From Bradyrhizobium roseum (GTDB taxonomy: Bacteria > Pseudomonadota > Alphaproteobacteria > Rhizobiales > Xanthobacteraceae): a DNA stretch of 64,000 nt. A program made the translations under genes and the position numbers. A model generated the notes under the pieces. The model worked only from the letters and a program-made list of their open reading frames with translations, was not told the origin of the DNA and searched no databases. The stretch spans positions 1,612,001 to 1,676,000 of the forward strand of contig NZ_CP129212.1 in assembly GCF_030413175.1 (NCBI RefSeq), in the 5' to 3' direction. Below, piece after piece: positions 26,241 through 53,763 of this stretch; position 1 is the first letter of the stretch; the number at the start of each line of letters is the position of its first letter.

Positions 26241-26308
26241 TGCTTGCCACCTTTCAAGGCTGCTTGTCTGTCCTGACTCCGATCGTCGTCGATTGTGCTG
26301 CGAAAAGA

Positions 26309-26324: not shown

Positions 26325-26568
26325 CCCGTCAGTGGCACGGCAGATAACGCGGGTTTGACAGAGGGATGGGTGGGCGGGAGGTCGCGCCACCCGGACGCGT
26401 CAAGAGAGCCATCCAATCTGAACCTCTGTGACGGCGCCGAGACAAATCAGGGCGGGCGTTGCGGACACCCGGGGAAGCCGGTGGATGAAGCAGAACCGGG
26501 GGCGCGCATTGACCGGCTCCTGTTGACGGCGCCAATATCCAGTCCTCTTTTCCGTGACGACCAGCTTT

Positions 26569-26584
26569 TGTGATGTCTCTCACG
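26569..26584 (+). promoter_or_regulatory. CRP-like palindrome upstream of sctD
   Basis: TGTGA-TGTCTC-TCACG, 15 of 16 fixed-position agreement with the TGTGA-N6-TCACA pattern, 63 bp before the sctD start. Confidence 0.6.
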
Positions 26585-26646
26585 GTTCTCCCGGCGGCGA
26601 CGGTCTATGTTGTGGACGTCAAGCCAAGAATGAATTGGGGTCCAAA

Positions 26647-27822
26647 ATGGCCGCTACCGGGATGATGTCTTCCTTCACCAATTGGTTCTCCGCCGCCGTC
26701 TCGTCGTCGCCGTCGACGTTCGTGCTCGAGAGCACGGCCGGCTTTCATCGCGGCGTGCGCCTCGAACTTGAACCGGGCGATATCCGTATCGGCTCCACGC
26801 CGGGCGCCGACATCGTCTTGCGGGACGCCGGCATCGCGGCCGAGCATGCCGTCCTGCGGGTCGGCCGCCGCACCATCGACCTTCATGCGATCGGCGGAGA
26901 CGTCCGCGTCGGTGAGAACGTCATCGCGAACGGCTTTGGCTGCGCGTTGCAAGCGCCGATCGATCTGACGATCGGGGAAGCGCGGCTGCGGATCTCCATC
27001 GAGCGCAATCAGGCCGCTGCACCGGCCCACGTCGAGTCCGGCGCCACTCCCGCCCGGCCACGCATCTCCAAGGCCCTCATGATCGCCGGCGCGCTCTTGC
27101 TGGCAGTTCCGGCGCTGGGGCTGGCCGCCATGCGCCCCGCCGCGAAGGCGAACGACCTGACCGGCATCGCCCGGGCCGAGGCGCAGGCCCTCGCGCCGGC
27201 CAACGAAAATCCGGCCCTGGCCGCCGCTTCGAAGCTCATGGCCGATCTCCCCGCGGCCGACCGCAAGTTCATTGAGCATTGCTTGTCGGCGCGGACCGGA
27301 ATTTCGGTGCGCGAGGCGATTGCAGAGCTCAATGGCTGCGATCGCAAGCCGTCTCCAAGCCTCGCCGCCGCACTCAACGGAACCGGGCCTAACGTAACCG
27401 CGCCCAACGGAGCCGCGCTCAACGCCGAAGAGGCCGGGCGCAAGCTCACCGAGCGCCTCGAGGCGTCGGGGCTCTCCGCTCTTCGGGTTGGCGCAGCGGG
27501 TGGACAGGTCACCGTCACCGGCAACATCACCAAGCAACAGACCGGCGCCTGGACGGAAGTGCAGCAATGGTTTGATGCGGCGTATCGCGGGCGGTTGGTT
27601 CTGGTCGCAAACGTAACTCCCGCCGAGGCCAAAAAACCGGCGCCGGTGATGAATGTGCAGGCCGTGTGGTTCGGCGAGCGCCCCTATGTCATTACGACCG
27701 AGGGCAACCGCTATTACAAGGGCGCCTTCCTCGACAATGGCTGGATGATCAAGGATATTGTCGACGGCCGCATCCTCCTTGCAAAGGACGGCGAGACCTT
27801 GGCGCTGGTCTATCGTCAGTGA
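26647..27822 (+). CDS. sctD: T3SS inner-membrane ring protein SctD
   Basis: A 391-aa protein. Residues about 20-115 are an FHA-like cytoplasmic domain (LEPGDIRIGSTPGADIVL, AGIAAEHAVLRVG). A single membrane helix follows at about 140-160 (LMIAGALLLAVPALGLAAM). The periplasmic part ends with ring-building-type segments (LEASGLSALRVGAAGGQVTV). This topology is that of SctD/YscD, which forms the outer of the two inner-membrane rings. ATG 26647 and ATG 26662 are both possible. It heads the sctD-x-TPR-sctV transcription unit. Confidence 0.85.
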   Translation: MAATGMMSSFTNWFSAAVSSSPSTFVLESTAGFHRGVRLELEPGDIRIGSTPGADIVLRDAGIAAEHAVLRVGRRTIDLHAIGGDVRVGENVIANGFGCALQAPIDLTIGEARLRISIERNQAAAPAHVESGATPARPRISKALMIAGALLLAVPALGLAAMRPAAKANDLTGIARAEAQALAPANENPALAAASKLMADLPAADRKFIEHCLSARTGISVREAIAELNGCDRKPSPSLAAALNGTGPNVTAPNGAALNAEEAGRKLTERLEASGLSALRVGAAGGQVTVTGNITKQQTGAWTEVQQWFDAAYRGRLVLVANVTPAEAKKPAPVMNVQAVWFGERPYVITTEGNRYYKGAFLDNGWMIKDIVDGRILLAKDGETLALVYRQ

Positions 27823-27852: not shown

Positions 27853-28239
27853 ATGGATAACCGTCGCATAGAGCGTACGCCGCTCGACCGGCCTGAATCG
27901 CGTGGACCGGAGGGTTTTGGCGGCCCTGCCAAAGACTGGGCCGTCGATTCCCCGGAGTTCGCGCGGCAGATTGCCGCCGCGCTCCACGAGCGCAAGGGTA
28001 CGGTCGGCAAGGCTATTCTTCGCGAACTCGTCAGCGAGTTCGTCAAGCCGATCGTTGCCGATCCCCAGATCCTGTCGACGGATCGCGCGATTGCGATCCT
28101 CGAGCAGCTGCTCACTACGGTGTTGCCGCAGCTCAAGGAGAGCGAAGAATTCAATCGCCTGGCAAAGACCGTGTTGGGTGAGGAGATCGAGCAGCGCCGC
28201 CATTTGCGCGCGCGCAGCCTTGAGGATACCGCGACATGA
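27853..28239 (+). CDS. Small T3SS-operon protein of unknown function
   Basis: A 128-aa protein from ATG 27853 (a TTG nine bases earlier is possible). The N-terminal 30 residues are charged and Pro/Gly-rich, the rest helical (FARQIAAALHERKGTVGKAI, LTTVLPQLKESEEFNRLAK). It sits between sctD and the TPR gene, overlapping the latter by four bases (ATGA). The position is that of small chaperone or export-regulating proteins in other systems, but no motif proves this. Confidence 0.6.
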   Translation: MDNRRIERTPLDRPESRGPEGFGGPAKDWAVDSPEFARQIAAALHERKGTVGKAILRELVSEFVKPIVADPQILSTDRAIAILEQLLTTVLPQLKESEEFNRLAKTVLGEEIEQRRHLRARSLEDTAT

Positions 28240-28571
28240 CGCCGGGGCGCGACCAGACGGTGGAGTTGCTGCACGCGCTTGGCCACCTTTATGCCCGTCA
28301 CAGCCAGCCGAAACGCGGGCTCGTCCTGCTGCTGATCGCCGCTCGCCTGGCACCGAACGATGAGGGCGTGCTGCGCACGCTCGCCGACGCGTTCTTGCGC
28401 AGCCGCTCGCCGCAGGCGGCCGCCGAGGTCATCGAGCGGCTGCAGGCGCTTGGTGGCGCGGACCAGCCCATGCTCGATCTGCTGCGCAGTCGCGCGCTAT
28501 GGCTCGCCGGCAATGAAAGCGAAGCGAAGCGCATTTTCCGCAGATTCCTCGAACAACGCGAACGGTCCTGA
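28236..28571 (+). CDS. TPR chaperone-like T3SS protein (SctG/y4yS type)
   Basis: A 111-aa protein of three TPR-like units (ELLHALGHLYARHSQPKRGL, LLLIAARLAPNDEGVLRTL, MLDLLRSRALWLAGNESEAK). TPR proteins of this size in T3SS operons serve as needle or translocator chaperones, and in rhizobia a comparable TPR protein (y4yS) is encoded by sctV. It is coupled to both neighbours (four-base overlap with the previous gene, two bases before sctV). The bound partner is unknown, since no needle gene is recognisable in the window. Confidence 0.65.
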   Translation: MTPGRDQTVELLHALGHLYARHSQPKRGLVLLLIAARLAPNDEGVLRTLADAFLRSRSPQAAAEVIERLQALGGADQPMLDLLRSRALWLAGNESEAKRIFRRFLEQRERS

Positions 28572-28573
28572 TC

Positions 28574-30754
28574 ATGATCGATAGATTGGCACGCGCGCTC
28601 GTCTACTTGTCCGGCCGCAGCGATCTCATCGTGGCGATCCTGATGCTGGTCGCGATCATCATGATCATTATTCCGCTGCCGACCTGGCTGGTGGACGGCC
28701 TCATTGCCATCAATATCTCCGTCAGCATGCTCATCCTGCTCGTCGTCTTCTATATCGCGCGGCCGGTCGAGTTCTCGTCATTCCCGTCGGTCATTCTGAT
28801 CGCCACATTGTTCCGGCTCGCGATCACCATCACCACGTCGCGTCTCATCCTGCTTCAGGCCGACGCCGGCGAGATCGTCAGTGCGTTCGGAAACTTCGTG
28901 ATCGGCGGCGACATCGCCGTCGGTCTCGTCGTCTTCCTCATCATCACGATCGCCCAATTCGTGGTCATCACCAAGGGTGGCGAGCGCGTCGCCGAGGTTG
29001 CTGCCCGATTCAGCCTCGACGCCATGCCGGGCAAGCAGATGGCGATCGACAACGACCTGCGCTCCGGCGACATCGACCAGGCCGAGGCCAATCGGCTCCG
29101 CCGTGGACTGGAGCGCGAGAGCCATCTGTTCGGCGCCATGGACGGCGCGATGAAGTTCGTCAAAGGCGACGCCATCGCCAGCATCCTCGTCGTCCTCGTC
29201 AACCTGATCGGCGGCATGATCATCGGCAGCCTGAAACACGGCATGACGATCGGAACCGCCGCCGAGACCTATGCGCTGCTCTCCGTCGGCGACGGGCTGG
29301 TCGCGCAGATCCCCTCGCTTTTCGTTTCGGTCGCCGCCGGCGTGTTGGTGACGCGGGTGTCGTCGGACAGCGACATGGGCACCGAAATAGCCGGGCAGTT
29401 GTTCCTGGAGCCGCGGGCGCTGGTGCTCGGTTCGGTGATCCTGGTTGGAATGGCGTTCGTCCCAGGCTTTCCGGCGGTGGCCTTTCTGCTTCTCGCGGCG
29501 GTCCTCGGGTTTGCCGGGTTCTTGACCGCCCGCCGGAAAGCGGCGCTCGAGGCGGCTGTGCGCAACGCCCCGGTAAAGCGGGCGGCAGGTGCGACGGCAG
29601 GCACGACTGCCCAACCCTCGCAAGTAGGTTCGACCGCTCAGGATTCGGCAAGGCTGGCAGGCCCGCCGGCATCTGATGCCACCATCGTCGTTTGGGTCAG
29701 CAGCGAGCTTGCATCGGCTGTACCGCCGGAGGGCTTCGCCGAGCTGACGACCCAGGCGCGCGCGGAACTGCTCAGCGATCTCGGCATCGAGATCCCGTCG
29801 ATCGCGCTCGAGGTCGACCCGACCCTCGCGCACGATCGCTTTCGCATCGACCTCGAGGGCACGCCGGTTATTGAAGGCACCGTTCCGCCGCAGGGGCTGC
29901 TTGTCGACGACGAGCCGGCTCACCTCGAACTGCTTGAGATACCCTACCGTCAGGAGCTGCCGCTCATCAGCTACCGCCCCGCGCTTTGGGTCGAGCGCTC
30001 GCATGCGGAAACCTTGTCTCAGGCCGGTGTCGCCTTTGCGCTGCCGGCCCAGATTCTGGCCAGATGCCTGATACAGATGTTGTACCGGCGGGCCGGCAGC
30101 TTCGTCGGCATTCAGGAAACGCGGAAGCTCCTCACCAAGATCCAGTCGAACTATGCCGACCTGGTGAAGGAGGCCGAGAAGATCGCGCCTCTGCAGAAGC
30201 TGGCAGAAATCCTGCGGCGCCTGGTCGATGAAAACGTACCCGTCCGCAACATGCGCGCCATTCTCGAGGCCGTGGTCGAATGGGGACAGCGTGAGCAGAA
30301 CGTGGTGCTCCTGGTGGAATATGTGCGCGTTGCGCTGGGCCGCCAGATCTGCTTCCGGTGTGCCGACCGCGACCGGGTGATCGCGGCCTATATGCTCGAG
30401 CGCTCGGTCGAAGACATGCTTCGCTCAGCCCAGCGCCAGACCGCGGCCGGGACCTACATGAACCTGACGGAGGAGGCGGTCCAGCCGTTGGTCAGTGAAA
30501 TCGCCCGCGCCCTGGCGGAAGCGGCGCCGGACGCGAAGCCCGTCGTGCTTACCGCAATGGACGTGCGGCGGGTCACACGACACTTGCTCACGCGCAGCAA
30601 TATCTACGTGCCGGTCATGTCCTATCAGGAGCTGGCGGCTGAATTTAACGTGCAGCCCCTCGGCTCCCTGACCAAGGGCAGTCAGGCTGAGGAGGGGTTT
30701 GATAGCGTCGGCCAATCGGCAGAACGGTTGAAGCTGGAGGCCGGGGCGAGATGA
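28574..30754 (+). CDS. sctV: T3SS export gate protein SctV (RhcV/FlhA family)
   Basis: A 726-aa protein, typical length. The N-terminal half has about eight membrane helices, with the FHIPEP-family signature AARFSLDAMPGKQMAIDNDL after helix 4 and the RRGLERESHLFGAMDGAMKF loop. The C-terminal half (from about 370) is the cytoplasmic ring domain, with the linker AAGATAGTTAQPSQVGS before it and the conserved RNMRAILEAVVEWG near the end. SctV forms a nonamer that docks chaperone-substrate complexes and conducts protons. Complete and apparently functional. Confidence 0.93.
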   Translation: MIDRLARALVYLSGRSDLIVAILMLVAIIMIIIPLPTWLVDGLIAINISVSMLILLVVFYIARPVEFSSFPSVILIATLFRLAITITTSRLILLQADAGEIVSAFGNFVIGGDIAVGLVVFLIITIAQFVVITKGGERVAEVAARFSLDAMPGKQMAIDNDLRSGDIDQAEANRLRRGLERESHLFGAMDGAMKFVKGDAIASILVVLVNLIGGMIIGSLKHGMTIGTAAETYALLSVGDGLVAQIPSLFVSVAAGVLVTRVSSDSDMGTEIAGQLFLEPRALVLGSVILVGMAFVPGFPAVAFLLLAAVLGFAGFLTARRKAALEAAVRNAPVKRAAGATAGTTAQPSQVGSTAQDSARLAGPPASDATIVVWVSSELASAVPPEGFAELTTQARAELLSDLGIEIPSIALEVDPTLAHDRFRIDLEGTPVIEGTVPPQGLLVDDEPAHLELLEIPYRQELPLISYRPALWVERSHAETLSQAGVAFALPAQILARCLIQMLYRRAGSFVGIQETRKLLTKIQSNYADLVKEAEKIAPLQKLAEILRRLVDENVPVRNMRAILEAVVEWGQREQNVVLLVEYVRVALGRQICFRCADRDRVIAAYMLERSVEDMLRSAQRQTAAGTYMNLTEEAVQPLVSEIARALAEAAPDAKPVVLTAMDVRRVTRHLLTRSNIYVPVMSYQELAAEFNVQPLGSLTKGSQAEEGFDSVGQSAERLKLEAGAR

Positions 30755-31057: not shown

Positions 31058-32323
31058 GTGAAATCGTATGTAAGGGCTGCATGGAAGCTGAAGGCGGGCG
31101 CATTCCTGTTCGCTATTCTGCTCGCGCCACCAGCTGCAGGCCAGGCGCCGACAAGCTCTTCTTCGCCGCGACAATCGATCGAGTTGATGGTGGGCCAGGG
31201 CCGCCTCCTACAATTGGATGAGGCGGCCGAGTCGGTCTACGTGGGCGACACGACGATCGCCGATCTGCGTGTCGTCGCGCCCGATGTCGTCTATGTTTAC
31301 GGCAGGAAGATCGGCAGCACGAATCTGATCGCGATCTCGGCCGAACACAAGATGCGCGCCAATGTGGCGTTTCGTGTTGTCGCCGACTCCGGCTCCGCCA
31401 ACGGTGCTATCCGCGACCTTCAGCCGACGTCTCACACCAAGCTCAGGCTGTTCGGCAATCGGGTGGCCGCGACCGGCCGCACGGGCTCCGTCGAGGAAGC
31501 GGTCGACGTGCAAAACACGGCGGATACTTACTCTCCGCCGGACCAGCCGCCGATCAACAACACCACAATCGCCGGCTCGCAACAGATCAATATCCGCGTG
31601 CGCTTTGCCGAGGTGTCGCGCGATGACGTCCAGCGCCTGGGCATCGGGTCGTCAGGTGGCGGTGGCATTGCGTTCGGCGGCAGCGGCAGCGAGGTGGATG
31701 CGCTCGTCGGTGCGATGCAGCGCAACGGGATGATGACCATCCTGGCCGAGCCGAATTTGACGGCGTCGAGCGGGCGGTCCGCGAGCTTCCTGGCGGGAGG
31801 CGAGATTCCGATCCCGACCCCCGGAAACCAGGCAGGGCAGATCAGTGTCACGTACAAGCCGTTCGGGGTCTCGCTCGAGTTCACGCCGACCCTGATCAGG
31901 ACAAATCGAATCGCTCTGCGGGTGAAACCGGAAGTGAGTTCGCTGTCGCGGGTAGGGGCTGTCAAAGCCAATGGCGTCGACCTGCCGAGCCTGATGGTCC
32001 GGCGGGCCGACACGACGGTGGAGGTAGCGAGCGGCCAGACGTTTGCGATCGCTGGTTTGTTTCAGCGACAGATGTCGCTGGATTTCGACAGAACCCCCGA
32101 AGTTGCTGACCTTCCGATTCTCGGCGGGTTGTTTCGCTCTGCCCGATACCGTCGCGACGAGACGGAGCTCGTGATTCTCATCACGCCGGTCCTCGTCAAA
32201 CCTGTGCGCGACCGCGGCCTTGCGACCCCCCTCGACAGGCCCGCACCGCCGCCGCCGCCCGGGCCGGCTCTCGTCAAAGCCAAGTCGCTACCCGAATCAA
32301 ATTCCGGCTTTGTGTTCAAATGA
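31058..32323 (+). CDS. sctC: T3SS secretin of Tad/CpaC type (SctC, RhcC2-like)
   Basis: A 421-aa outer-membrane ring protein starting at GTG with GAGGGAG upstream. The signal peptide ends near AAGQA (residue 29). Next comes a CpaC-type N-domain (IELMVGQGRLLQLDEAAESV, VYVYGRKIGSTNLIAIS), then the secretin core with EVSRDDVQRLG, FLAGGEIPIPTP and the closing LVILITPVLVKPV. It resembles Tad-pilus secretins more than Ysc-type ones. Rhizobial T3SS secretins are split, and the missing N-domain is probably supplied by the protein at 39028. The CpaD-like lipoprotein gene overlaps its end. Confidence 0.85.
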   Translation: MKSYVRAAWKLKAGAFLFAILLAPPAAGQAPTSSSSPRQSIELMVGQGRLLQLDEAAESVYVGDTTIADLRVVAPDVVYVYGRKIGSTNLIAISAEHKMRANVAFRVVADSGSANGAIRDLQPTSHTKLRLFGNRVAATGRTGSVEEAVDVQNTADTYSPPDQPPINNTTIAGSQQINIRVRFAEVSRDDVQRLGIGSSGGGGIAFGGSGSEVDALVGAMQRNGMMTILAEPNLTASSGRSASFLAGGEIPIPTPGNQAGQISVTYKPFGVSLEFTPTLIRTNRIALRVKPEVSSLSRVGAVKANGVDLPSLMVRRADTTVEVASGQTFAIAGLFQRQMSLDFDRTPEVADLPILGGLFRSARYRRDETELVILITPVLVKPVRDRGLATPLDRPAPPPPPGPALVKAKSLPESNSGFVFK

Positions 32324-32826: not shown

Positions 32827-32917
32827 GCGTGCTACACTGGCTTGATGGGGGCGGCCAGGCCACCTCCGTTTTGCGATGCAGCATTGATGCTGCATGCCCA
32901 CCACCAAGGACAGGGCG

Positions 32918-33730
32918 ATGAGCATCGGGTTTCGTCTCGCATCCTGTGCCGTGCCGACCCTCCTCGGCTTTTTGCTCGCCGGGTGCGCGGGGCAGGCGTT
33001 GCTGGATGCAGCGGTCACTACCGAGACGAAGCCGGATCGGGACGGGTTGATGCGTGTTGCATCCGACGTCGAAGCCCAGGGACAGATCGTCGCCGCGCTA
33101 CCGATCTATGAGCGTGCGGCTGCCGCGTCGAGCGGCGATGCCGCAGCGCAGGTGCGTCTCGGCGACGCCTATACGCGCGCCGGCAAGACCGATCAGGCGA
33201 TCCAGGCCTACCGGGCCGCACTCGCTGTGGCCCCTGACAATCCCGATGCGTTGATCGGACTGGGCTCGGCCCTGGTCAAGGCTGGCGATGCCGACGGTGC
33301 AGTCGTGCACCTGGCGAAAGCCGCCCCGGTCGTCAATACGATGACGGCCTACAATCGGTTGGGCGTGGCGCAGATGCTTGCGGGCCAATTCGCGCAAGCG
33401 CAATTGTCATTCGACGCTGCGAGCGCGCTTGCGCCTGACGACCTCGATATCCGCACCAACCTCGCCCTCGCGGCCGCGCTCGACGGGCAGGAAGCCAAGG
33501 CGATAGAGGCCGCGCGCATCGTCGTCGCGTCGTCGGGGGCGGAGGCACGACATCGGCGGAATCTGGTGATCGTGTACGGTCTGCTTGGGCGGGGCAACGA
33601 AGGGCGGGCCGCCGTGCCCAAGGGATTGTCGGCAAGCGAAGTGAAGAAACTGCTCGCGCGCGCGACGGCGATCCGCGCCATCAGCGATGCCAAGGCGCGC
33701 GCCAAGGCTCTCGGCACGATCATGAGTTGA
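32918..33730 (+). CDS. TadD-like TPR lipoprotein
   Basis: A 270-aa protein from ATG 32918 with AAGGA upstream (an ATG at 32894 would add eight residues). The signal peptide ends with lipobox LLAGC. The mature part carries at least four TPR units (QVRLGDAYTRAGKTDQAIQA, PDALIGLGSALVKAGDADGA, TAYNRLGVAQMLAGQFAQAQ). This is the build of TadD, an assembly factor of Tad pili. With the two preceding genes it forms a complete Tad-like outer-membrane set inside the T3SS island. Confidence 0.75.
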   Translation: MSIGFRLASCAVPTLLGFLLAGCAGQALLDAAVTTETKPDRDGLMRVASDVEAQGQIVAALPIYERAAAASSGDAAAQVRLGDAYTRAGKTDQAIQAYRAALAVAPDNPDALIGLGSALVKAGDADGAVVHLAKAAPVVNTMTAYNRLGVAQMLAGQFAQAQLSFDAASALAPDDLDIRTNLALAAALDGQEAKAIEAARIVVASSGAEARHRRNLVIVYGLLGRGNEGRAAVPKGLSASEVKKLLARATAIRAISDAKARAKALGTIMS

Positions 33731-34001: not shown

Positions 34002-36941
34002 ATGGCAACACGGGTTGAAATCAAAGGCGATCGCATTTCTTTTCTCCGGATCATGGTGGGATTTCTTCCACTCGCTTTCGGATATTTTTTGTCTGTTCTG
34101 TTTCAGAGCTTAGATCCGCTTATTGCCGATGATCTGACGACCGATTTGGCGATCGGTAAGGGCACGCTGGGGATGCTGACTGCGGCATTTCCACTGGCTT
34201 TTGCGGTTTGCCTGCTGCCGTCCGGCATTGCGATTGATCGATTTGGGCCGCGTGCCGTCCAGGCGGTTATGATGGCGGTGGCGGCGCTCGGCGCATTGAT
34301 ATGCGGCCTGTCTACAGGATCATTCGGCCTCATGATGGGCCGCACGCTGCTCGGTGCGGGCGCCGCCTCGGCGCTCCTCGCGGCAATGAAGGCGGTCGTC
34401 ACATGGTTTCCGCGTGAGCGCCTCGGCCTGGCGACGGGGTGCCTCATAGCGGTCGCAGGGGTCGGCGCGCTCGCGATGGCCGATCCGGCCGCAGTCTTCG
34501 TGCGCGCGCATGGATGGCGGGCGCTGTTTATCCTGTTGGCCGCGCTGTCGACGTTCTGCGCTATCCTGGCCCTGCTGCTGGTTCCCACACCTGCAACCGT
34601 CACCGGCGATGTGCCCGATCACGACCACGGCCTGCCATTCGTCCTGCGCGATCCGGTCTTTCGACGATTGGCGCCGCTCGCCGCGATTGTGGTCGGGACG
34701 GTATGGGCGATCCAGGGCCAATGGGTTGCAGGCTGGCTTGGTGTGAATGGGGTCAGGCTCACCAGCATTATCACCTACATCAGCTTCATAGCGGTGGGCC
34801 AGGCCGCAGGTGCGCTGGTCTGGGGGTGGCTCGCCGACTGGGCTGTGCGAAAGGGTCTATCGGCTGCACGCGTATTTGTGGGCGCCGTCGCGCTCTCCGG
34901 CTGCATCCAGCTCGCCGCGGTCGGCGGCATAGCATTGCCGAACTCTATCGTCTGGGGCGTGTTGGTGGCCGCCGCTGCAGCCACGCTGCCCTTCGTCGTC
35001 CTGCTGACGCATTTTCCGCAAGCCTATGCGGCTCGCGCATGCGCGAGCATCGGCGTGTTGCAGTATGTCGCTACCCTTTTCATCCAGTCGGCTGTTGGTG
35101 GCGTCGTCGCGATCTGGCCACATGCGGCATCAGGTCAAACGTCAGCGACGGCCTATGCGATGGCATTCATGGTGCCGATCGCATTGCAACTCGCGGCTCT
35201 GGCCTGGATCCTGTTTCCTCGGTCGGAAACACGAGACGGCGCGCAGAGCGTCGAGGAAATCGCTGTCGCATTTGAAGCGGCTCGATCCGCTGCGCAGGTG
35301 CAGGGCCTCTCGGAGCCGCCTCCCATTCCTGGTGGCCTGCCAGCCAACGTCGCTGCGAGTCCAGCCGGCACTGCCGTGCAGCCAACCGAGGCTGCCGGAG
35401 AGACCGTCCCGGCTGCCTCTGCGTCAGCCGAGACCGTGGAAGCGCTCACCGACAACACCCCGGCGGAGCCAGCCAGCCCCACCTCGGGGCCGCCCGACGC
35501 TGCTGCGACCCCGGCCGACACTGCCGTGGAGCCAGCCGAAATTGCGGTCGATCCGGTCGGCGCCGCATTGGCACCAACCGAGACAGTCTCCGAGGCAGCG
35601 GTGCCTGTCTCAGCGCCAGAGGCAGAGGCTGAGGCAGCACGGACCGACAGCCCCGCGGCGCCATCCGGCCTCGCCGGGGAGCCGGTCGGCACCGCTGGCG
35701 CGGCAGCCGAGACGGTCACGGCACTCACCGGCGCCGCTCTTCGATCCGTCCTCGATGGCCCGCTGACCGTCGGCCCGGCCGGCGCCATTGACACGATTTC
35801 GCGCGCCAGTGCCGACCCGTCAGACGGGGTCGCTCCCGATCACGACGCCGAAACGGCTCAGCCTCAAGCGCAGGGGCTTTCCTTGCCGCGGGTCGCGCCG
35901 TCGCACGTGCAAGCGCTCAACGCGGTGTATCGTCGGCGCCCGGCCTTGGCGGCGACGATTGGCGGACGACGAACAACCATTGTCGCCGCGTGGCCGCCGT
36001 CCGATCGGCGTCCCGAGGTGAGCCATCGGGTGGCGCTGCGCCTCGATGGCGAAGCCGGCGAGTTATGGTTGCCGCAATCGATGCTCGATGTGCTGGTCAA
36101 TAGTGTGGATCCGGCGCTGTCGCTCGATCGCCTGGGGCCGGACCGGGCTGCCATCGTTCTCGAATTCGCTCTCGACAGCGCCCTGACGGCGGTCGAGATG
36201 ATGCTCGGTTGCAAGCTCGCGATCGATTCATATTCGGGTCAGGTCGAGCGGCTGGAGAACGATGGACAGCTGCCATTGTTTTTTACCCTCGTGATAGAGG
36301 GGCTCTTGACCACCGGTTGCGAACTGCGAATTCCCCCGGATTACGCGTTCAGGCTTGCGGAAGGGCTTGACCGGCATGCCGGGATCGATCGCTCCGTTCT
36401 CGACCTGCCGATCCCGGTGTGCCTGCGCGTTGCCGCTGCCAACCTCACGGCGGGCGAGATCGAACGCTTGTCACCCGATGACGTCGTGCTGGTCGACGCT
36501 TCCTGCGAGCCGGGCGATGACGTGATCGCCGTCATCGGCGAGCGGCTCGTTGCGTCGGTGGCGCTCGGCCCGGAGGGTCCCCGCCTTGCCACGCATCCGA
36601 TCCCCGGAGCCACTTCATCCTGGGCATGGAGTATGCCGACCGATGCCACGGCCGGCGCGTGGGAGGGGGAAGCCGAAACCGATAACCGGCCGCTGCATGT
36701 CCTGTTCGAGATCGGACGCTTCGAACTGCCGGCCAGCCAGGTGAAGCAGCTCGCGCCGAACTTTCTGTTGCCGTTGGAGCCGCTGCACGACCAGACGGTC
36801 GATATCGTCGTCGACGGACAGCGGATCGGCCGTGGCACCTTGATGCGGATCGGCAATCGCACAGGCGTCCGGGTCATCGCAGTGCGCGAACGCCCGCGCC
36901 CCGCTCCGGGCTTGAAAGACACTCCAGCCGGCGAGCAATAA
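34002..36941 (+). CDS. sctQ: MFS transporter fused to full-length SctQ (T3SS sorting platform)
   Basis: A 979-aa continuous reading. Residues about 15-405 are a 12-helix major facilitator: LSVLFQSLDPLIADDLTTD in the first helix-loop region, GIAIDRFGPRAVQ between helices 2 and 3, and WGWLADWAVRKGLSAARVF in the second half. Residues about 410-640 are an Ala/Pro/Thr/Glu-rich disordered linker. From about 650 on comes SctQ: an N-region (VAPSHVQALNAVYRRRPAL), a first SpoA domain (LPIPVCLRVAAANLTAGEIE) and a final SpoA domain (898-964, FEIGRFELPASQVKQLAP, GRGTLMRIGNRTGVRVIAV). SctQ normally is a soluble cytoplasmic pod protein; here it would be tethered to the membrane. No stop or ribosome site is seen at the junction. 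Transport substrate unknown. Confidence 0.85.
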   Translation: MATRVEIKGDRISFLRIMVGFLPLAFGYFLSVLFQSLDPLIADDLTTDLAIGKGTLGMLTAAFPLAFAVCLLPSGIAIDRFGPRAVQAVMMAVAALGALICGLSTGSFGLMMGRTLLGAGAASALLAAMKAVVTWFPRERLGLATGCLIAVAGVGALAMADPAAVFVRAHGWRALFILLAALSTFCAILALLLVPTPATVTGDVPDHDHGLPFVLRDPVFRRLAPLAAIVVGTVWAIQGQWVAGWLGVNGVRLTSIITYISFIAVGQAAGALVWGWLADWAVRKGLSAARVFVGAVALSGCIQLAAVGGIALPNSIVWGVLVAAAAATLPFVVLLTHFPQAYAARACASIGVLQYVATLFIQSAVGGVVAIWPHAASGQTSATAYAMAFMVPIALQLAALAWILFPRSETRDGAQSVEEIAVAFEAARSAAQVQGLSEPPPIPGGLPANVAASPAGTAVQPTEAAGETVPAASASAETVEALTDNTPAEPASPTSGPPDAAATPADTAVEPAEIAVDPVGAALAPTETVSEAAVPVSAPEAEAEAARTDSPAAPSGLAGEPVGTAGAAAETVTALTGAALRSVLDGPLTVGPAGAIDTISRASADPSDGVAPDHDAETAQPQAQGLSLPRVAPSHVQALNAVYRRRPALAATIGGRRTTIVAAWPPSDRRPEVSHRVALRLDGEAGELWLPQSMLDVLVNSVDPALSLDRLGPDRAAIVLEFALDSALTAVEMMLGCKLAIDSYSGQVERLENDGQLPLFFTLVIEGLLTTGCELRIPPDYAFRLAEGLDRHAGIDRSVLDLPIPVCLRVAAANLTAGEIERLSPDDVVLVDASCEPGDDVIAVIGERLVASVALGPEGPRLATHPIPGATSSWAWSMPTDATAGAWEGEAETDNRPLHVLFEIGRFELPASQVKQLAPNFLLPLEPLHDQTVDIVVDGQRIGRGTLMRIGNRTGVRVIAVRERPRPAPGLKDTPAGEQ

Positions 36942-36987: not shown

Positions 36988-38025
36988 TCAGATTCCGAAG
37001 CGGACCAGGAGGCGGGCGACATCCGTGAAGGCACCCGCCGGAATCCTGTCGCCAACCGTATGGGGTATGAGCAGCTCGACCAAGGACGCATCCTCGACAA
37101 CCGGGATTCCGAGGCGTCTCGCTTCGGCGACCATATCATCGCCAGCCTGGCCGCGAGCCTTGCTGCAGATCAGCGGCACCGGCTCTTCTTCGCGGTGGTA
37201 CAGCAGCCCAACCGCACGATCTTCGTGTGCGACGACAACCGCGGCATGGCGCACGCCTTTGCGCACCTTCTTTGCCGCGAACATGAACTGGAGGCGGCGG
37301 CGCTCGGCTTTGATCAGCGGATTGCCTTCGAGCTCCTTCATCTCCTTCTTCCTCTCGGTCAGGCTCATACGCATTTCTTTTAGAAAGAGATGACGCTGCA
37401 ACGGCATGTCGAGTATGCCGATGACGACAAAGGCGATCACGGCGGTCACGGCGAGCGGCTGCAAGGTGGAAATCACCATCTGGCCAAGGCAGCCTTCGCC
37501 GCAGGAAGGGGTCTGGAACAGCGGTGGGATGTAGCCGCGCAGGACGGTCCAGAAGGCGGCGGTCACCACGACGACCTTGACGAGACTCTTGGCGAACTCG
37601 ACCACGTTTCGTGACGAGAAAATGCGTTTCGCGCCTTTCATCGGACTGATGTGGTCGAATTGCAGTTTCACGGTCTCAAACGAAAATAACGGGCCGCCCG
37701 TCGCCGCCATTCCCATCACCACGGCGACGGCGAAGACCACGGCAAGGAGCGGCACGGTGGTCATGACCAGCACATCGATGGTGCCGTACACCGCGCGCGG
37801 CCAGGTTTCGGCGAACGGCCGCTCGGTGGATTTGGAAACAAGGTCGATGAGCTCCACCAGGCGATCGCGCATCATCGGCCACTGGTACAGCAGATAGAGC
37901 GTGGCGGCGAGCATCGTGAAGCCCGACACCAGGTCCTTGCTGTTGGAGGTCTGTCCCTTGCGGCGTGCGTCAGCGAGCTTCTTTGGCGATGCCGGAAGGT
38001 TTTTCTCTTCTGATTCGTCAGCCAT
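36988..38025 (-). CDS. sctU: T3SS export switch protein SctU without NPTH motif
   Basis: A 345-aa FlhB/YscU-family protein of usual length: cytoplasmic start (EEKNLPASPKKLADARRKGQ), four membrane helices (about 35-50, 83-108, 145-163, 187-206), then a cytoplasmic domain. At the autocleavage site the family has NPTH; here VVVA-HEDR-AVGLLY (residues 263-276) is found, one residue shorter. Self-cleavage between Asn and Pro, which switches substrate class, therefore looks impossible. The rest, including PVPLICSKARGQ and IPVVEDASLVELLI, is intact. It is encoded opposite to the other structural genes, 416 bp after a small 51-aa gene. Confidence 0.9.
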   Translation of the reverse strand: MADESEEKNLPASPKKLADARRKGQTSNSKDLVSGFTMLAATLYLLYQWPMMRDRLVELIDLVSKSTERPFAETWPRAVYGTIDVLVMTTVPLLAVVFAVAVVMGMAATGGPLFSFETVKLQFDHISPMKGAKRIFSSRNVVEFAKSLVKVVVVTAAFWTVLRGYIPPLFQTPSCGEGCLGQMVISTLQPLAVTAVIAFVVIGILDMPLQRHLFLKEMRMSLTERKKEMKELEGNPLIKAERRRLQFMFAAKKVRKGVRHAAVVVAHEDRAVGLLYHREEEPVPLICSKARGQAGDDMVAEARRLGIPVVEDASLVELLIPHTVGDRIPAGAFTDVARLLVRFGI

Positions 38026-38690: not shown

Positions 38691-38706
38691 AGTGAGCCAC
38701 GTCACA
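38691..38706. promoter_or_regulatory. CRP-like palindrome upstream of the 51-aa gene and sctU
   Basis: AGTGA-GCCACG-TCACA, 94 bp upstream of the minus-strand 51-aa gene and 322 bp upstream of the plus-strand secretin N-domain gene. Confidence 0.55.
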
Positions 38707-39027
38707 CAGGCCCGTCGCCACCGGAAAAACGGATTTGGTGAGCGGCGATGCCGGGCGGCCCGGTCGATCGGCGGCTGTCGCAACAGAAATCAGCAAATGC
38801 GCAAACGGCACATGACGGTCGCACGAGCGGCCGTGGCATTGCGTCATTGGCCGCCGGTTGAAAAAAGCAGGCTGGCAATTTGGCGGTCTGTGACGCAGGT
38901 CCGGCGCGCAGCTCCAAAAGTGCGATTGATCAAGCCAAATTCGCCGTGGTACAATTTTATTGCATTTCAATGTGCACCATTTCGCTGCTCGCGACCCAGT
39001 CGGCCGGGTGCACTCGGGAGACGAACC
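38707..39027. other. Leader region of the secretin N-domain gene
   Basis: 321 bases without a supported gene. It includes TGTGACGCAGGTCC near 38889 (half of a CRP-like box) and an AT-rich patch at 38936-38975 (ATTTTATTGCATTTCAATG) that may carry the promoter. Confidence 0.35.
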
Positions 39028-39591
39028 ATGCCTCTGAAGATCGTCTCTGCTGTCCTCCTGGCGGCGGCAATCCTTGTCGGAATGCCGCGGGCCGCCGAGG
39101 CACTGGATCCAAAATGGCCGCCAGGCCCCTACAAGTATGTCGTCATCGAGCAAGAGCTGAAGGACGCCCTGATCGAGTTCGGCCGCAACGTCAACGTTCC
39201 GGTCAAGGTCAGTGACGAGGTCAAGGGCAAGCTGCGCGGCGATCTGGGGGCCGGATCGGCCGAGGATTTCTTCAAGCGGCTCACGTCAAGCCACGGCCTG
39301 GTCTGGTATTTCGACGGCTCCGTGCTGCACGTCAATTCAGCAAGCGAACTGCGAACGGAAGTGATCGATCTCGGCCGGATCCTGCCGACGGATGTGGTGT
39401 CCAAGCTCACCAGGCTCGGCATCGCCGATCCACGCTACCCGATTCGGACGACGCCGGGATCTGGCGTCATTTCGGTATCAGGCCCGCCGCCCTATATCGT
39501 GCTCGTGCGCCAGACGCTCATCGCAATGGCTCGGCAGATACCTCAGGGAGAGGATACCAGGGTGCGGGTATTTCGCGGCTCGAGCGGCTAA
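39028..39591 (+). CDS. T3SS secretin N-terminal domain protein (SctC1, RhcC1/NolW-like)
   Basis: A 187-aa protein starting MPLKIVSAVLLAAAILVGMP with GGGAG nine bases upstream. The signal peptide is cut near AEA/LDP. The mature chain has the N0/N1 features of T3SS secretins: ELKDALIEFGRNVNVPVKVS, KRLTSSHGLVWYFDGSVLHV and GVISVSGPPPYIVLVRQTL. There is no secretin barrel. In rhizobia the secretin is encoded in two parts, RhcC1 and RhcC2; this is the first part. It is expected to line the periplasmic channel below the barrel encoded at 31058. Confidence 0.85.
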   Translation: MPLKIVSAVLLAAAILVGMPRAAEALDPKWPPGPYKYVVIEQELKDALIEFGRNVNVPVKVSDEVKGKLRGDLGAGSAEDFFKRLTSSHGLVWYFDGSVLHVNSASELRTEVIDLGRILPTDVVSKLTRLGIADPRYPIRTTPGSGVISVSGPPPYIVLVRQTLIAMARQIPQGEDTRVRVFRGSSG

Positions 39592-41187: not shown

Positions 41188-41802
41188 ATGAGTGTGGCCA
41201 TTACCGCCCAAGCCCCGGTCGCCTCTTCGCCGCCGAACGCTTCGCCGCAGGCAGCCCAAGGCGCTGGCGCGACCAGCGAGCAGGGGCTTGTCGACTTTTT
41301 CGCCAAGGCCCGCGTGGACGCCGCCAACGGACACCTGCCGGAGGCAGCAGCCAATTCCGTGGCTTCGAGCGGGGAGATGCTCGGGAAGCTGCGCGAGTTC
41401 ATTGAGAAGGCGCATCAAACCGATACGTCGAACAAGGCCACGAGAGCCAAGCAGAGGGCAGCTGCCGCCGAGGCCAAGACGGAGATCGCCACGCTCGACA
41501 CGCTTGGTTCGCTCAGCAGACCTAACTCCCTCACGCAATTCAGTCCGCTCGGCCAGTCTGGTCCGGTCGGTCAGTTGGGCGCCTTCAATCAGTTTAGCCC
41601 CGGCGGTCTGCCTCCGGGACCGGCATCGGGATCGCTTGGTCCCGGCCCCGGCCTGGAGATGAGAGGCCGCCTGCCGGCCATGGCCGACAAGATGACCAAC
41701 GACCTCGTGGATTCCGCGATCCAGCGCATGTGGACCCAGGTGGTGGCTCATGCGACCAGTTCGGTAACCAAGAACGTGATGAGCCTGCTCAAGGGGCAGT
41801 GA
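41188..41802 (+). CDS. sctI: T3SS inner-rod protein SctI (NolB-like)
   Basis: A 204-aa protein at the nolB position, first of ten coupled genes. The N-terminus is Ala/Ser/Pro-rich like secreted T3SS proteins, and a Gly/Pro-rich middle (NSLTQFSPLGQSGPVGQLG) contains short repeats. The C-terminus HATSSVTKNVMSLLKGQ ends like inner-rod proteins (KGQ-type end). SctI is secreted to build the rod connecting export gate and needle. The sequence match is limited to the tail, so the call rests mainly on gene order. Confidence 0.65.
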   Translation: MSVAITAQAPVASSPPNASPQAAQGAGATSEQGLVDFFAKARVDAANGHLPEAAANSVASSGEMLGKLREFIEKAHQTDTSNKATRAKQRAAAAEAKTEIATLDTLGSLSRPNSLTQFSPLGQSGPVGQLGAFNQFSPGGLPPGPASGSLGPGPGLEMRGRLPAMADKMTNDLVDSAIQRMWTQVVAHATSSVTKNVMSLLKGQ

Positions 41803-41816
41803 CGGGGGGAAATTCC

Positions 41817-42689
41817 GTGAGCGCCGTCTTGCTCCGTTCTTCATTGCCACGCTGGGTACAGCGGGCCCTGGTATTGCTTGTCGCGTTGCTGCTCTCGGCT
41901 TGCGAGGCGGAGCTCTACAACAATCTCGATCAGCGCCAGGCCAACGAGATGATCGCGGCCCTGCAGCAGCGCGGGATCGCCGCGCAGCGCGTGCCGGTCA
42001 AGGGCGGTCAGTACACGGTCGTGGTCGACAAGGGCCGCTTCGCCGAATCGATCGCCATCCTCAAGGAAGCTGGTCTCCCCAAGCAGGAGTTCCAGAACAT
42101 GGGGCAGGTGTTCAAGAAGGATGGCCTCGTCTCCTCGCCGATGCAGGAGCGCGCGCAGATGATTTTCGCGCTGAGCCAGGAGCTTTCACGCACCGTTTCG
42201 GAAATCGACGGCGTCCTGTCCGCCCGGGTTCACCTCGTGCTGCCGGAAAACGACCCACTGCGCCAGCAACTCGTGCCGTCGTCGGCGTCGGTCTTCATCC
42301 GCCATCGCAGCAACATGCCGGTCGGCAATCTGGTGCCCCAGGTGAAGATGCTGGTGGCCAACGGCGTCGCCGGCCTGTCCTACGACAAGGTATCGGTTGT
42401 CCTCGTACCGGTCGACGCGCAGAAGGCAAGTCAAGGCCAGGACCTCGAAATGGTCTCGTTTTTCGGCGTGTGGATGCAGCGCGACAACCTGGCGCAGGCG
42501 ATGTGGATGTTCTTTGGCCTCGTCGCGCTGGTCGTCCTGCTGGCAGGCGCGCTCGCCTTCGTCTTCTTTCGTCAGCGCGGACGCGTCTATGCATTGAGTG
42601 CGCCGCGCCCGGTCCCGTCGAATGTCTTGAGCGCGCCTTCGCCTAACGCGGTGAAGCCTGGTTCGTCGAACGTGGTGAAAGCGTCGTGA
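41817..42689 (+). CDS. sctJ: T3SS inner-ring lipoprotein SctJ
   Basis: A 290-aa protein from GTG 41817 preceded by GGGGGAA. The signal ends with lipobox LLSAC. The periplasmic ring domains show YNNLDQRQANEMIAALQQRG and ELSRTVSEIDGVLSARVHLV, conserved in SctJ/PrgK. A C-terminal membrane helix (MWMFFGLVALVVLLAGALAF) anchors it, followed by a Ser/Pro tail. It forms the inner of the two inner-membrane rings with SctD. Its stop overlaps sctK (GTGA). Confidence 0.92.
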   Translation: MSAVLLRSSLPRWVQRALVLLVALLLSACEAELYNNLDQRQANEMIAALQQRGIAAQRVPVKGGQYTVVVDKGRFAESIAILKEAGLPKQEFQNMGQVFKKDGLVSSPMQERAQMIFALSQELSRTVSEIDGVLSARVHLVLPENDPLRQQLVPSSASVFIRHRSNMPVGNLVPQVKMLVANGVAGLSYDKVSVVLVPVDAQKASQGQDLEMVSFFGVWMQRDNLAQAMWMFFGLVALVVLLAGALAFVFFRQRGRVYALSAPRPVPSNVLSAPSPNAVKPGSSNVVKAS

Positions 42690-43309
42690 GCACGGCGCCC
42701 GAAAGCACCGGAGTCGATGCCGGCTGGGATGCGTTCGTCACGCGGCCGGCCCTCTACATCGAGCCGTCGCGGCTCGCCATGTGTTTCGACGGAATGGTGG
42801 ATTCCGAATTGTGCGCGCGGCTCAAGACCTCACGCCGCCTCGAGGAGCGGCTGTCGCGTCTCGTCCATTCGCGCTACCGGCTGGGGCGTACGGTTGCGGC
42901 CGAGGACGTCGGCGACATTGACCGTTCGATCGCGCTTGCCTCGTCGGAACAGCTGGCGGAGCTGGCGCGCCGCGCCGGAGCGATCTATTGGGCGAACAGC
43001 ATCGCCAATACCGTTCGGGCCGCGGATGCGGCGGCGTTCGATGCCGCGCTGGGCGAGACGCTCTGCGTCGTCGCGCTTGCCAATCGCGATCTTTCCGGCC
43101 CGATGCAGCCGCTCACCCCCTACGATCAGCTCAGTGCGCGCGTGATGCAGGATGGCCTGCGCTGCCTTGGCGCATGGTGCAGGGGGCAGAGCCCCGGTGT
43201 CGGTCTGCGCGTCGGCCTCAAGCTCGCGCCAAATCCGGCGCTCGACGATGCCGTGAACCGTCCCTTCGATGAGCTCGGCCCCGCGATCATCCGCCGAGCG
43301 GCCGGCTGA
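42686..43309 (+). CDS. sctK: T3SS sorting-platform protein SctK (NolU-like)
   Basis: A 207-aa protein from GTG 42686, overlapping sctJ by four bases. It is mostly helical, with RLAMCFDGMVDSELCARLKT, LVHSRYRLGRT and LANRDLSGPMQPLTPYDQL. The size and place between sctJ and sctL match NolU/SctK, which caps the SctQ pods under the inner ring. The family is poorly conserved, so gene order is the main evidence. Confidence 0.75.
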   Translation: MSTAPESTGVDAGWDAFVTRPALYIEPSRLAMCFDGMVDSELCARLKTSRRLEERLSRLVHSRYRLGRTVAAEDVGDIDRSIALASSEQLAELARRAGAIYWANSIANTVRAADAAAFDAALGETLCVVALANRDLSGPMQPLTPYDQLSARVMQDGLRCLGAWCRGQSPGVGLRVGLKLAPNPALDDAVNRPFDELGPAIIRRAAG

Positions 43310-43320
43310 GGTTGAACGCC

Positions 43321-43935
43321 ATGATAGACAGAGTGAACTCGGTATCCTTGAATCGACAGCAGCCGGCGGATGGTCCGACGAAGGGCTCGGTTCTGAATGC
43401 CAGGGATGTGAAAGCCTGGCAGGACGCCTTCGAATTCCTGAGCCATGCCGAGAAGCAGATCGCCGAACAAAAGACGGAAGCGGAGGAAACCGCCTCCCGT
43501 CTCTACGAGGCCGAGCGTGCCAGGGGCTACGAGGACGGCAAGGCGGAGGCGACCAGGCTCATTACCGAGACGACCCTGAAGGTGGACCGTTATCTTCAGT
43601 CGATCGAGCCGCAAGTTGCCAAGCTCGCCATGAGCGTCGTCAACCGTGTCCTCGGCAATTTTGACACCCGCGACCTTGTCGCCGCCGCTGCCGCACACGC
43701 CATCACCGATTTGCGTCGTGAGAAAGGTCTGACGGTCACGGTTCACCCTGACGTCGTCGACAGCGTCTCCAGGGAATTCGCCCGCCTCGGCCTCAGCGGA
43801 CGCATCGAAGTGACGATCGAGGGCAACCCGTCTTTCGACCGGACCGCATGTATCATCGCCAGTGATCTTGCCGTCATCGACGCCAGTGTCCAGACGCAAC
43901 TGTCCGCCATCGCCGCCGCGATCGGCGCGGTTTGA
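43321..43935 (+). CDS. sctL: T3SS ATPase stator SctL (NolV-like)
   Basis: A 204-aa protein from ATG 43321 with GAGG nine bases upstream (TTG 43312 is possible). An N-terminal coiled-coil half ([20 protein letters not shown]) leads to the conserved globular end ([39 protein letters not shown]). SctL links the ATPase to the C-ring and restrains its activity. Twelve bases follow sctK's stop. Confidence 0.9.
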
Positions 43936-43949
43936 CGAGGCGGGATGCG

Positions 43950-45323
43950 ATGACCGCCGAGCGCTTCAGCATCGACGACCGCCTTACCTCCGTTCTGCCC
44001 AGCCTGTATGAGAAGATACGCGACAGCGCGCCACGGTCGCGCAAAGGGCGTGTCCGCCGCCTGCTCGGCGTCATCATCCATGCCACCGCGAGCGGGGCGC
44101 GCATCGGCGAACTCTGCCATCTGGTCGACCCGGAAACCGGCCGACGGGTCATGGCCGAGGTGATCGGAATCCTTGACGACGTCGCCGTGCTGACCCCGAT
44201 CGGCGACCTGTTCGGGCTGTCGAGCATGACCGAGGTGATTCCCACCGGCACCGAGTTGTTGGCCCCGGTGGGAGACCGCCTGCTTGGTCGCGTGATCAAT
44301 GCGCTGGGCGATTCAATCGACGGTGAACCTCTTCCGACTGACATCGCGACCCGTCCGGTCACCGGAGCACCACCGGCGCCGCTCGCCCGGGGCATCATCC
44401 GCGATCCCATTCAGCTCGGCATCCGCGCCATCGATGGGCTCATCACCTGTGCACGCGGGCAGCGCGTCGGAATTTTCGGTGAAGCCGGCGGCGGCAAGTC
44501 CACCCTGCTGGCCGACATCGTCCGCGGCACCGACGCGGATGTGGTCGTGGTCGCGCTTATCGGCGAGCGCGGACGTGAGGTACGGGAGTTCCTCGAAGAT
44601 CAGCTTGGACCGGAGGGGCGCAAACGCGCGGTCGTCGTGGTCGCGACGTCGGACAGCCCGGCCATGGAGCGCGTCAAGGCTGCCTATGCGGCGACAGCGA
44701 TCGCAGAGCATTTCCGCGATGAGGGCAAGCAGGTGTTGCTGCTCATGGACAGCCTCACCCGCTTTGCGCGCGCCCAGCGCGAGATCGGGCTGGCGGCCGG
44801 TGAACCGCCGACGCGGCGCGGCTTCCCGCCGTCGCTGTTCGCCGCACTTCCGCGTCTCGTCGAGCGCGCCGGCCTGGATGGTGGCGGCGGGTCGATCACC
44901 GGCATCTACACGGTGCTGGTCGAAGGCGAGATCGCTCTTGATCCGGTTGCCGAGGAGGTGGTGTCTTTGCTTGACGGCCATATGGTCCTCTCGGGCGAAC
45001 TCGGTCGCCGCAACCATTTTCCTGCGATCGACGTGTTGCGCAGTCGCAGCCGACTGATGGACTCGACAGTGCCGCCGCAGCACCGCGACGACGCGGCCCG
45101 CATGCGCCAGCTGATGGCAAGCTACGCCGACGTCGAGCTCCTGCTGCGTGTCGGCGAGTACCAGAAGGGCAGCGACCCGTTGGCGGACGAGGCGATCGCC
45201 AAGATCGACGCCATCAACGGATTCCTTCGCCAGAAGATGCACCAGCACGAGGCGATCGAAGAGACGCGGCGGCGGATGCGCGAGATTGTCGCCCAGGTCG
45301 GCAGCCAGCCGCAGCCGCTATGA
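43950..45323 (+). CDS. sctN: T3SS ATPase SctN (RhcN)
   Basis: A 457-aa F1-beta-like ATPase from ATG 43950 (GAGGCGGG upstream; a TTG 18 bases earlier overlaps sctL). Walker [10 protein letters not shown] is at 177-185, followed by [18 protein letters not shown] and Walker [21 protein letters not shown]. The [20 protein letters not shown] motif is typical of type III ATPases. It strips chaperones and unfolds substrates at the base of the export gate. Confidence 0.96.
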
Positions 45324-53762: not shown

Positions 53763-53763
53763 G

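Follow-up and report, generated by a model that had tools for sequence, protein, structure and literature searches.

SctQ proteins (YscQ/SpaO/HrcQ/RhcQ), the normally soluble pod proteins of the sorting platform, are encoded in the gene clusters of type III secretion systems (T3SSs) and combine an N-terminal domain with two SpoA domains. A division of labour between a longer and a shorter SpoA protein is familiar from the flagellar C-ring, where FliM and FliN are separately encoded; we know of no membrane module on either of them. SctQ of Yersinia is reported to exchange with a cytosolic pool, and effector shuttling has been proposed (PMC4295842; PMC10769875); for Xanthomonas, pH-dependent cytoplasmic complexes are described (PMC12376730). 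In Yersinia and Xanthomonas the long form is reported to depend on an internal product of the gene, SctQ_C, for its assembly or stability (PMC4295842, PMC8553256). The Yersinia study reports that full-length YscQ needs YscQ_C to assemble and likens SctQ_C to FliN (PMC4295842). SctQ_C of Pseudomonas syringae has its own gene, as the HrcQA/HrcQB pair (PMC8553256). Here we compare these systems with a gene of Bradyrhizobium roseum that joins a major facilitator superfamily (MFS) domain to SctQ, and that lies in a stretch of 64,000 nucleotides (contig NZ_CP129212.1, positions 1,612,001 to 1,676,000), which we call the window.

We regard it as likely that the product is a membrane-anchored SctQ, whose N-terminal module would serve as an anchor, and perhaps as a sensor, rather than as the ancestral transporter. 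It shares with other SctQs the N-terminal domain and the two SpoA domains, its location inside a T3SS gene cluster and sequence positions held in common with standalone sister proteins. However, it also has a membrane module at its N terminus followed by a long linker, no longer has the internal start of SctQ_C and falls below the NCBIfam cut-off. As with HrcQA/HrcQB, long and short SctQ products are predicted to come from two genes, but the long form here has both SpoA domains, is fused to a membrane module and is encoded away from the short gene, which is what a deletion has left of a whole sctQ. Where SctQ is typically a soluble protein that cycles between cytosol and injectisome, the fused protein is predicted from its sequence to reside in the membrane. 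In contrast with the cytosolic exchange of Yersinia and the cytoplasmic complexes of Xanthomonas, SctQ would be expected to be confined to the membrane. The original prediction, made from this DNA alone, knew of no described T3SS with such an architecture, and we likewise found no paper on an MFS- or Cache-fused SctQ among the open-licence articles of PubMed Central.

Architecture of the fused protein

The fused gene occupies 34002-36941 on the forward strand. Its 979 codons are read from the ATG to the stop without interruption, and its product has three parts:

34002..35225, + strand: MFS domain, residues 1-408 (Pfam MFS_1, AlphaFold2 helices, Foldseek matches to DgoT and G6PT; cytoplasmic ends predicted from MFS topology)
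35226..35921, + strand: disordered Ala/Pro/Thr/Glu-rich linker, residues 409-640 (composition, length, model confidence)
35913..36941, + strand: SctQ domain with two SpoA folds, residues 638-979 (Pfam, NCBIfam, Foldseek)

The Pfam family MFS_1 matches residues 24-359 with 110.2 bits (cut-off 33.4), and FliMN_C, the SpoA family, matches two stretches, the best at residues 897-960 with 56.5 bits (cut-off 23.8). The NCBIfam SctQ model TIGR02551 aligns with residues 775-960 at 82.9 bits, under its strict cut-off of 100.8, whereas five standalone SctQs (P0133, P0134, P0138, P0145 and L051) all pass with 106.5-137.1 bits. By this cut-off the fused domain appears to be a diverged SctQ and not a member of TIGR02551. 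The AlphaFold2 model shows twelve long helices within residues 11-404, a disordered region at residues ~430-630 with a predicted local distance difference test (pLDDT) score of 26-39 by block, and an SctQ domain with most blocks at 74-91 and a few at 47-71. The predicted template modelling (pTM) score of the fused protein is 0.32, and the mutual arrangement of the domains is not predicted. Foldseek against the PDB gives as its best match 4yxb, a FliM(SpoA)::FliN fusion with two SpoA folds, followed by the DgoT and G6PT (glucose-6-phosphate) transporters. The 232 residues of the linker include 58 Ala, 29 Pro, 20 Thr and 20 Glu, with a net charge of -26; a tandem-repeat origin was considered and rejected, as only one 21-base array scored. 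Frame, Pfam, AlphaFold2 and Foldseek together confirm the uninterrupted 979-codon MFS-linker-SctQ reading of the original prediction.

Recurrence of the fusion

A search of 5.8 billion proteins with the fused protein (7,993 candidates scored) returned 105 matches. We omitted P0105, which matches over the MFS only (31%), and counted 104, including the window's own protein. One frame runs across the MFS-linker-SctQ junction in 98 of the 104, and in 80 both domains are essentially whole. Identity to the window is 46-88% for the MFS (median 82) and 44.5-91.4% for SctQ (median 85.5 over 79 whole relatives), and the linker varies from 90 residues in P0104 to 305. Among the six proteins not counted, P0096 and P0099 start in the last MFS helix and also reach SctQ, P0100 starts in the linker, P0101 stops in the linker, and P0102 and P0103 carry a dCache domain. 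The source labels of the relatives (jgi, ena, lgn, ncbi and others), mostly on short contigs, indicate that they probably come from metagenomes. When the SctQ part alone served as query, 47 proteins were obtained: 12 were standalone SctQs (34-50% identity) and 35 were fragments belonging to the fused clade.

Recurrence at the junction, which the prediction had proposed as a check, is thus found in the database proteins, and it bears directly on whether the frame is an artefact of sequencing or assembly or a decayed gene, a reading to which we give almost no credence. Three fused-clade matches, P0087, P0089 and P0093 (contigs of 303, 327 and 43 kb), end early inside SctQ and P0101 ends in the linker, as an artefact or decay would have it; these early ends may reflect sequencing error, decay or natural splitting. 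The host genome, however, is complete in a single contig of 7,319,411 bases and the fusion recurs independently in one frame, and on this recurrence a lone or artefactual frame was rejected, short of a systematic error shared by independent assemblies.

Among sampled genomes (265 of the genus, 391 of the family and 385 of the class, in overlapping samples, with 5-8 candidates scored per genome at limits of 1e-10, 1e-30 and 1e-30), a frame longer than 610 codons was found only in the own genome. No plasmid record of 109 covered 80% of the fused protein, and none of the 39 SctQ loci on genome contigs had an MFS match in the stretch of DNA covered. The sister T3SSs carry separate sctQ genes. The metagenome-assembled Bradyrhizobium genome G033 retains the first 116 MFS residues at 81% identity before its contig turns to unrelated sequence, and it neither shows nor refutes the fusion. 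On that contig (L107) the MFS gene gives way to unrelated sequence at ~10315-10707, where there are ten N; this break is probably a misjoin in the metagenome-assembled genome.

Erosion of the canonical sctQ and loss of the internal start

A second sctQ-like gene, sctQ2, occupies the canonical place in the same cluster, and three features of the window are compared here:

45827..46267, + strand: sctQ2, an eroded sctQ between the sctO candidate and sctR (match to standalone SctQ P0134)
45985..46267, + strand: surviving unit of sctQ2, with GGAG, 6 nt, ATG (45995) and 90 residues of SctQ_C (78% to P0134)
36621..36635, + strand: lost internal start of the fused gene, W-A-W-S-M, TGG GCA TGG AGT ATG, against TGG GAR TGG NNN ATG in the sisters

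The sister clusters have a whole sctQ between sctN/sctO and sctR (for example L038, L039, L051, L040, L054, L063 and L068). Residues 1-25 and 26-53 of sctQ2 correspond to residues 1-25 and 220-247 of P0134 with 60 and 57% identity, so that ~194 residues have been deleted relative to P0134, and the N-terminal domain and the first SpoA domain are missing. Over its last 90 residues sctQ2 shares 78% identity with P0134, compared with 36% with the fused SctQ. The remnant in G033 is 63 bases longer upstream and has an in-frame TAG just 5' of the internal ATG, and therefore only SctQ_C can be made there. The ratio of nonsynonymous to synonymous substitution rates (dN/dS) between the window and G033 is 0.98 upstream of the ATG (55 codons) and 0.41 from the ATG onwards (88 codons). 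The same comparison gives 0.11-0.25 for SctD, SctV, the secretin, SctN, SctO, SctR and SctT, 0.34 for the tetratricopeptide repeat (TPR) gene and 0.44 over the initial 116 codons of the MFS. All of these ratios are rough and come from small samples. These values suggest no visible constraint on sctQ2 upstream of the ATG and a moderate purifying signal downstream of it.

In the sister sctQ genes, TGG GAR TGG NNN ATG encodes W-E-W-x-M and at the same time supplies a Shine-Dalgarno-like motif six bases 5' of the ATG. The internal-start word TGGGARTGGNNNATG lies in the sctQ frame at 32 of the 39 loci (L038-L069), with GGAG in 30 and GGAA in two; it is lacking in the G033 remnant (L070), where the frame is broken, and in the six most distant loci (L071-L076). 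The motif Glu is present in 12/12 standalone proteins, two of which have Leu for Met, and in 0/99 fused-clade proteins, where Ala (88), Ser (7), Thr (3) or Pro (1) replaces it; the motif was found in 99 of the 104 fused-clade proteins and was absent from five. The motif Met is retained in 89 of these 99, with Thr in eight, Leu in one and Val in one. At this site of the fused gene in the window there is no 4-base Shine-Dalgarno match in reach, whereas sctQ2 retains GGAG, six bases and ATG. The fused gene has thus lost the start signal of SctQ_C, which sctQ2 still carries, and translation of SctQ_C from sctQ2 is predicted from sequence.

No conserved Met that could start a free SctQ was found at the junction, where the best column reaches 17% of 41 relatives. 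Two other candidates there were rejected. TTG 628 was flagged by a loose Shine-Dalgarno pattern and not by an anti-Shine-Dalgarno match, and its position is Phe in 37 of 41 relatives; GTG 636 is Val in 41/41 but has no Shine-Dalgarno match.

TIGR02551 matches six places in the genome, which are the fused SctQ (SctQ1), SctQ2 and four weaker ones; by best family the latter are flagellar, with two FliN and one FliM over their family cut-offs and one FliN-like piece under its own. The fused protein thus appears to be the only full-length SctQ in the genome and, because sctQ2 is eroded and the internal start is lost, its only long-form SctQ. The two products of one sctQ gene would now be encoded by two genes, each without what the other supplies. 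A quite different arrangement is that the fusion takes no part in the pods and is an accessory or decoy, with the short product of sctQ2 alone serving the machine. We hold this to be very improbable. The canonical place of sctQ2 and the purifying signal downstream of its ATG would fit, but sctQ2 has neither the N-terminal nor the first SpoA domain, and YscQ_C alone is reported to form no foci in Yersinia (PMC4295842). Moreover, the fused SctQ is encoded inside the T3SS cluster and is strongly conserved, at the median identity given above.

Comparison of the MFS domain with free relatives

To describe what changed in the MFS domain, 83 fused proteins longer than 900 residues were compared with the 22 nearest free MFS relatives from the same genus, the own genome included; seven more distant relatives were omitted. 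In the free set 142 columns are at least 90% conserved, and 71 of them are kept in the 83 fused proteins. R35, N38, Q71, N145, T160 and N347 occur in 22/22 free and 0/83 fused proteins. T158 is kept in two of the 83, N351 is mostly Gly in the fused set, and H354, present in 20/22 free relatives, is Gln in 83/83. Position 35 of the fused proteins is Gln in 76, including the window, Glu in three, His in two, Leu in one and a gap in one. By contrast, Asp79, Arg80 and Gly82 of motif A are present in 83/83, many Gly, Pro and Trp residues are also kept, and twenty polar or aromatic positions are retained at 98% or more.

The domain is related in fold and sequence to DgoT and to organic-anion and sugar-phosphate transporters of the MFS. 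The alignment of a free relative with DgoT begins at residues 28 and 40, respectively, so R35 probably corresponds to Arg47 of DgoT if this alignment is ungapped. Arg47 of DgoT is described as binding the substrate carboxylate (PMC6532931). In contrast to DgoT, the domain here is fused to SctQ, and the putative substrate Arg and other polar positions are lost in the long fused proteins. We conclude from these alignments that the long fused proteins maintain the MFS domain but appear to have lost the ancestral substrate site. The most likely role of the domain is that of an anchor whose binding site has changed and has perhaps become sensory, rather than that of the transporter from which it descends.

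That the MFS is instead a working transporter, coupling solute or proton flux to the secretion machine, is unlikely. The invariant motif A residues and the twenty retained positions would suit such a role, as would P0104, which keeps the Arg, Thr and Asn of the first transmembrane helix, and P0101, which belongs to the main clade by similarity and keeps the Arg and Thr. However, the six positions lost from every long fused protein include the counterpart of the DgoT substrate ligand, subject to the same ungapped alignment, and the whole domain can be replaced by dCache, which is not a transporter. The coupling of secretion to a transported solute, as the original prediction suggested, is weakened by the contrast at R35 and by the sub-lineage with dCache. 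Elsewhere in the genome, at 5722386-5723627 on the reverse strand, an 892-codon open frame (L004) carries an MFS match with one TGA inside the match.

Exchange of the MFS for a dCache domain

In P0102 and P0103 the MFS is replaced by a dCache domain, which scores 48.8 and 61.4 bits against a cut-off of 45 and lies between two hydrophobic stretches. The two proteins are 82% identical over the dCache part, and their linker opens with the same words as that of the MFS form. A tree of 50 rows was built from the SctQ part, with several long branches flagged; in it P0104, an MFS fusion, branches first, then the two dCache proteins and then the MFS clade. Support is 100/97 for all fused proteins and 100/99 for the fused proteins without P0104, and weak (92/59) for the order of the dCache rows. 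P0104 also joins the fused clade in the tree of the MFS part (94/89). One MFS fusion followed by one exchange for dCache would be the simplest history, and two separate fusions may also account for these trees. The exchange and the altered MFS positions appear to favour sensing over transport.

The same proteins bear on the possibility that the fusion is cut in the linker to release soluble SctQ, the membrane part being a delivery or timing device. A linker of such length, disorder and variability, with its many small residues, suits proteolysis, and SctQ held at the membrane is reported to block secretion in Yersinia (PMC7221075). However, the frame is kept across this hypervariable linker in nearly all relatives, and the two dCache proteins have swapped one membrane module for another rather than lost it. 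We therefore consider cleavage improbable, although somewhat less so than a working transporter.

The T3SS gene cluster and neighbouring genes

The fused SctQ is encoded inside a T3SS gene cluster, whose other members in the window are as follows:

26554..27822, + strand: SctD (family match)
28236..28571, + strand: SctY-type assembly chaperone (family match)
28574..30754, + strand: SctV (the sole SctV over the family cut-off in the genome)
31058..32323, + strand: secretin half with a pilus-type N domain and the secretin domain (Pfam/NCBIfam)
32894..33730, + strand: TPR protein directly 5' of the fusion (family match)
36988..38025, - strand: SctU, convergent with the fusion (family match)
38692..39591, + strand: N-terminal half of SctC, with N0 and secretin_N domains (Pfam)
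41730..42689, + strand: SctJ (family match)
42686..43309, + strand: SctK candidate (position between SctJ and SctL; no family match)
43312..43935, + strand: SctL (family match)
43932..45323, + strand: SctN ATPase (family match)
45320..45820, + strand: SctO candidate (weak FliJ match, position)
46260..46910, + strand: SctR (family match)
46954..47223, + strand: SctS (best match TIGR01403, 71.3 bits; cut-off 76.5)
47243..48043, + strand: SctT (family match)

The SctV profile has three matches in the genome, one of them over the cut-off; we read the other two as flagellar FlhA, and the cluster in the window is, as judged by SctV, the sole T3SS of the genome. The secretin is split over two genes ~6 kb apart (31058-32323 and 38692-39591), an arrangement that we take to resemble RhcC2/RhcC1 of rhizobia. 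Regulation by a tts box was considered and rejected: the window has two matches to the pattern with three mismatches, neither of them near the start of the fusion, and at least as many occurred in 4 of 100 shuffles. The genus suggests a soil habitat.

Beside sctT, a frame of 594 residues at 48105-49889 on the reverse strand has no Pfam or NCBIfam match. A counterpart at the same place in G033 is 68% identical over residues 419-594, and residues 83-151 also have a 58% match in G033, to the counterpart there of the peptidoglycan-binding gene at 24951-26390. Three MoeA-type genes, one with a PBP-like domain, lie within ~8 kb on the forward strand (52407-53762, 53719-55722 and 59339-60592), and a NuoE/NuoF-type gene is found near them at 61168-62880. 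A HipA-type gene with a HipA N-terminal domain is located at 16313-17482 on the reverse strand.

A probable membrane-anchored SctQ and the points against it

The sequences compared show the fusion and its recurrence, an eroded canonical gene, an internal start signal missing from the fused gene and a membrane module exchanged in two relatives; together these suggest the following arrangement. The N-terminal module would sit in the inner membrane. Both ends of MFS proteins are cytoplasmic, and SctQ would therefore face the right side. The mean reach of a disordered chain, by a standard polymer estimate, is ~13.5 nm for 230 residues and ~8 nm for 90 residues; such a long tether would let the cytoplasmic SctQ domain join a pod while the anchor stays in the lipid. 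The fused protein would supply all of the long-form SctQ and the sctQ2 remnant would supply SctQ_C. With sctQ2 reduced and no untethered long form, pod assembly would therefore have to use the tethered SctQ, and SctQ with bound SctL/SctN would be restricted to the surface of the membrane rather than forming a pool in the cytosol. The tethering to the inner membrane put forward in the original prediction stands in so far as a conserved fusion should tie SctQ there; insertion into the membrane and assembly into pods are its conditional parts.

Several observations weigh against this arrangement. First, engineered tethering is at odds with it: in LITESEC-T3SS, SctQ at a membrane anchor is reported to support no secretion in Yersinia (PMC7221075). 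Both cases hold SctQ at the inner membrane, but there the hold is engineered, light-controlled and switchable and the held SctQ is inactive, whereas here a covalent tether would be the natural state of the sole long form. Since the held SctQ of LITESEC is inactive, tethering may need a long linker to work, and the long linker may be what makes natural tethering work. Second, the whole fusion was found in no named or sampled genome other than its own. Eleven of the 47 matches to the SctQ part are partial fused-clade proteins on contigs longer than 10 kb, and P0101 stops within the linker on a 37 kb contig; true split genes may be among them. Third, the loss of MFS positions has exceptions: P0101, which is shorter and consists of MFS and linker alone, retains R35 and T36, and the distant fusion P0104 keeps R35, T36, N38, Q71, N145, T158 and T160. 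The loss was therefore stepwise and not universal.

Fourth, other starts are present within the fused gene of the window. A 7-base Shine-Dalgarno match belongs to the GTG of residue 677, and 4-base ones to GTG 534 and TTG 769; such matches occur at 14 of 130 start-like codons across the three frames. A start at GTG 677 would truncate the SctQ domain, and the Glu that underlies its Shine-Dalgarno match is Asp in 25 of 29 readable whole fusions (Glu in two, other residues in two; 51 of the 80 unread). Finally, TIGR02551 scores 60.9-87.6 bits in six fused proteins in a full-length scan, all below the cut-off, the MFS part of the AlphaFold2 model is low to middling in confidence (blocks at 36-72) and sctQ2 is under only moderate constraint from its ATG onwards.

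Beyond the anchored SctQ itself, a ligand-gated sorting platform can be imagined, in which the module, either a receptor derived from a transporter or, in the sister lineage, the dCache sensor, perceives an extracytoplasmic molecule and permits or withholds SctQ from the pods via the tether. We put this forward tentatively, as a possible but rather doubtful extension.

Implications

New in this comparison are the eroded sctQ slot, the lost internal start, the dCache swap and the loss of otherwise invariant MFS positions. If all of the long-form SctQ is tied to the membrane, this T3SS would offer a natural experiment on the need for free shuttling. That the long and short products are divided between two genes, each decayed in its redundant half, would be evolutionary evidence that neither product is dispensable. 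A dCache domain in place of the MFS on the same linker suggests a possible route for outside signals to act directly on the pods and, if the ligand-gated platform were true, secretion competence would be the output of a one-component membrane receptor.

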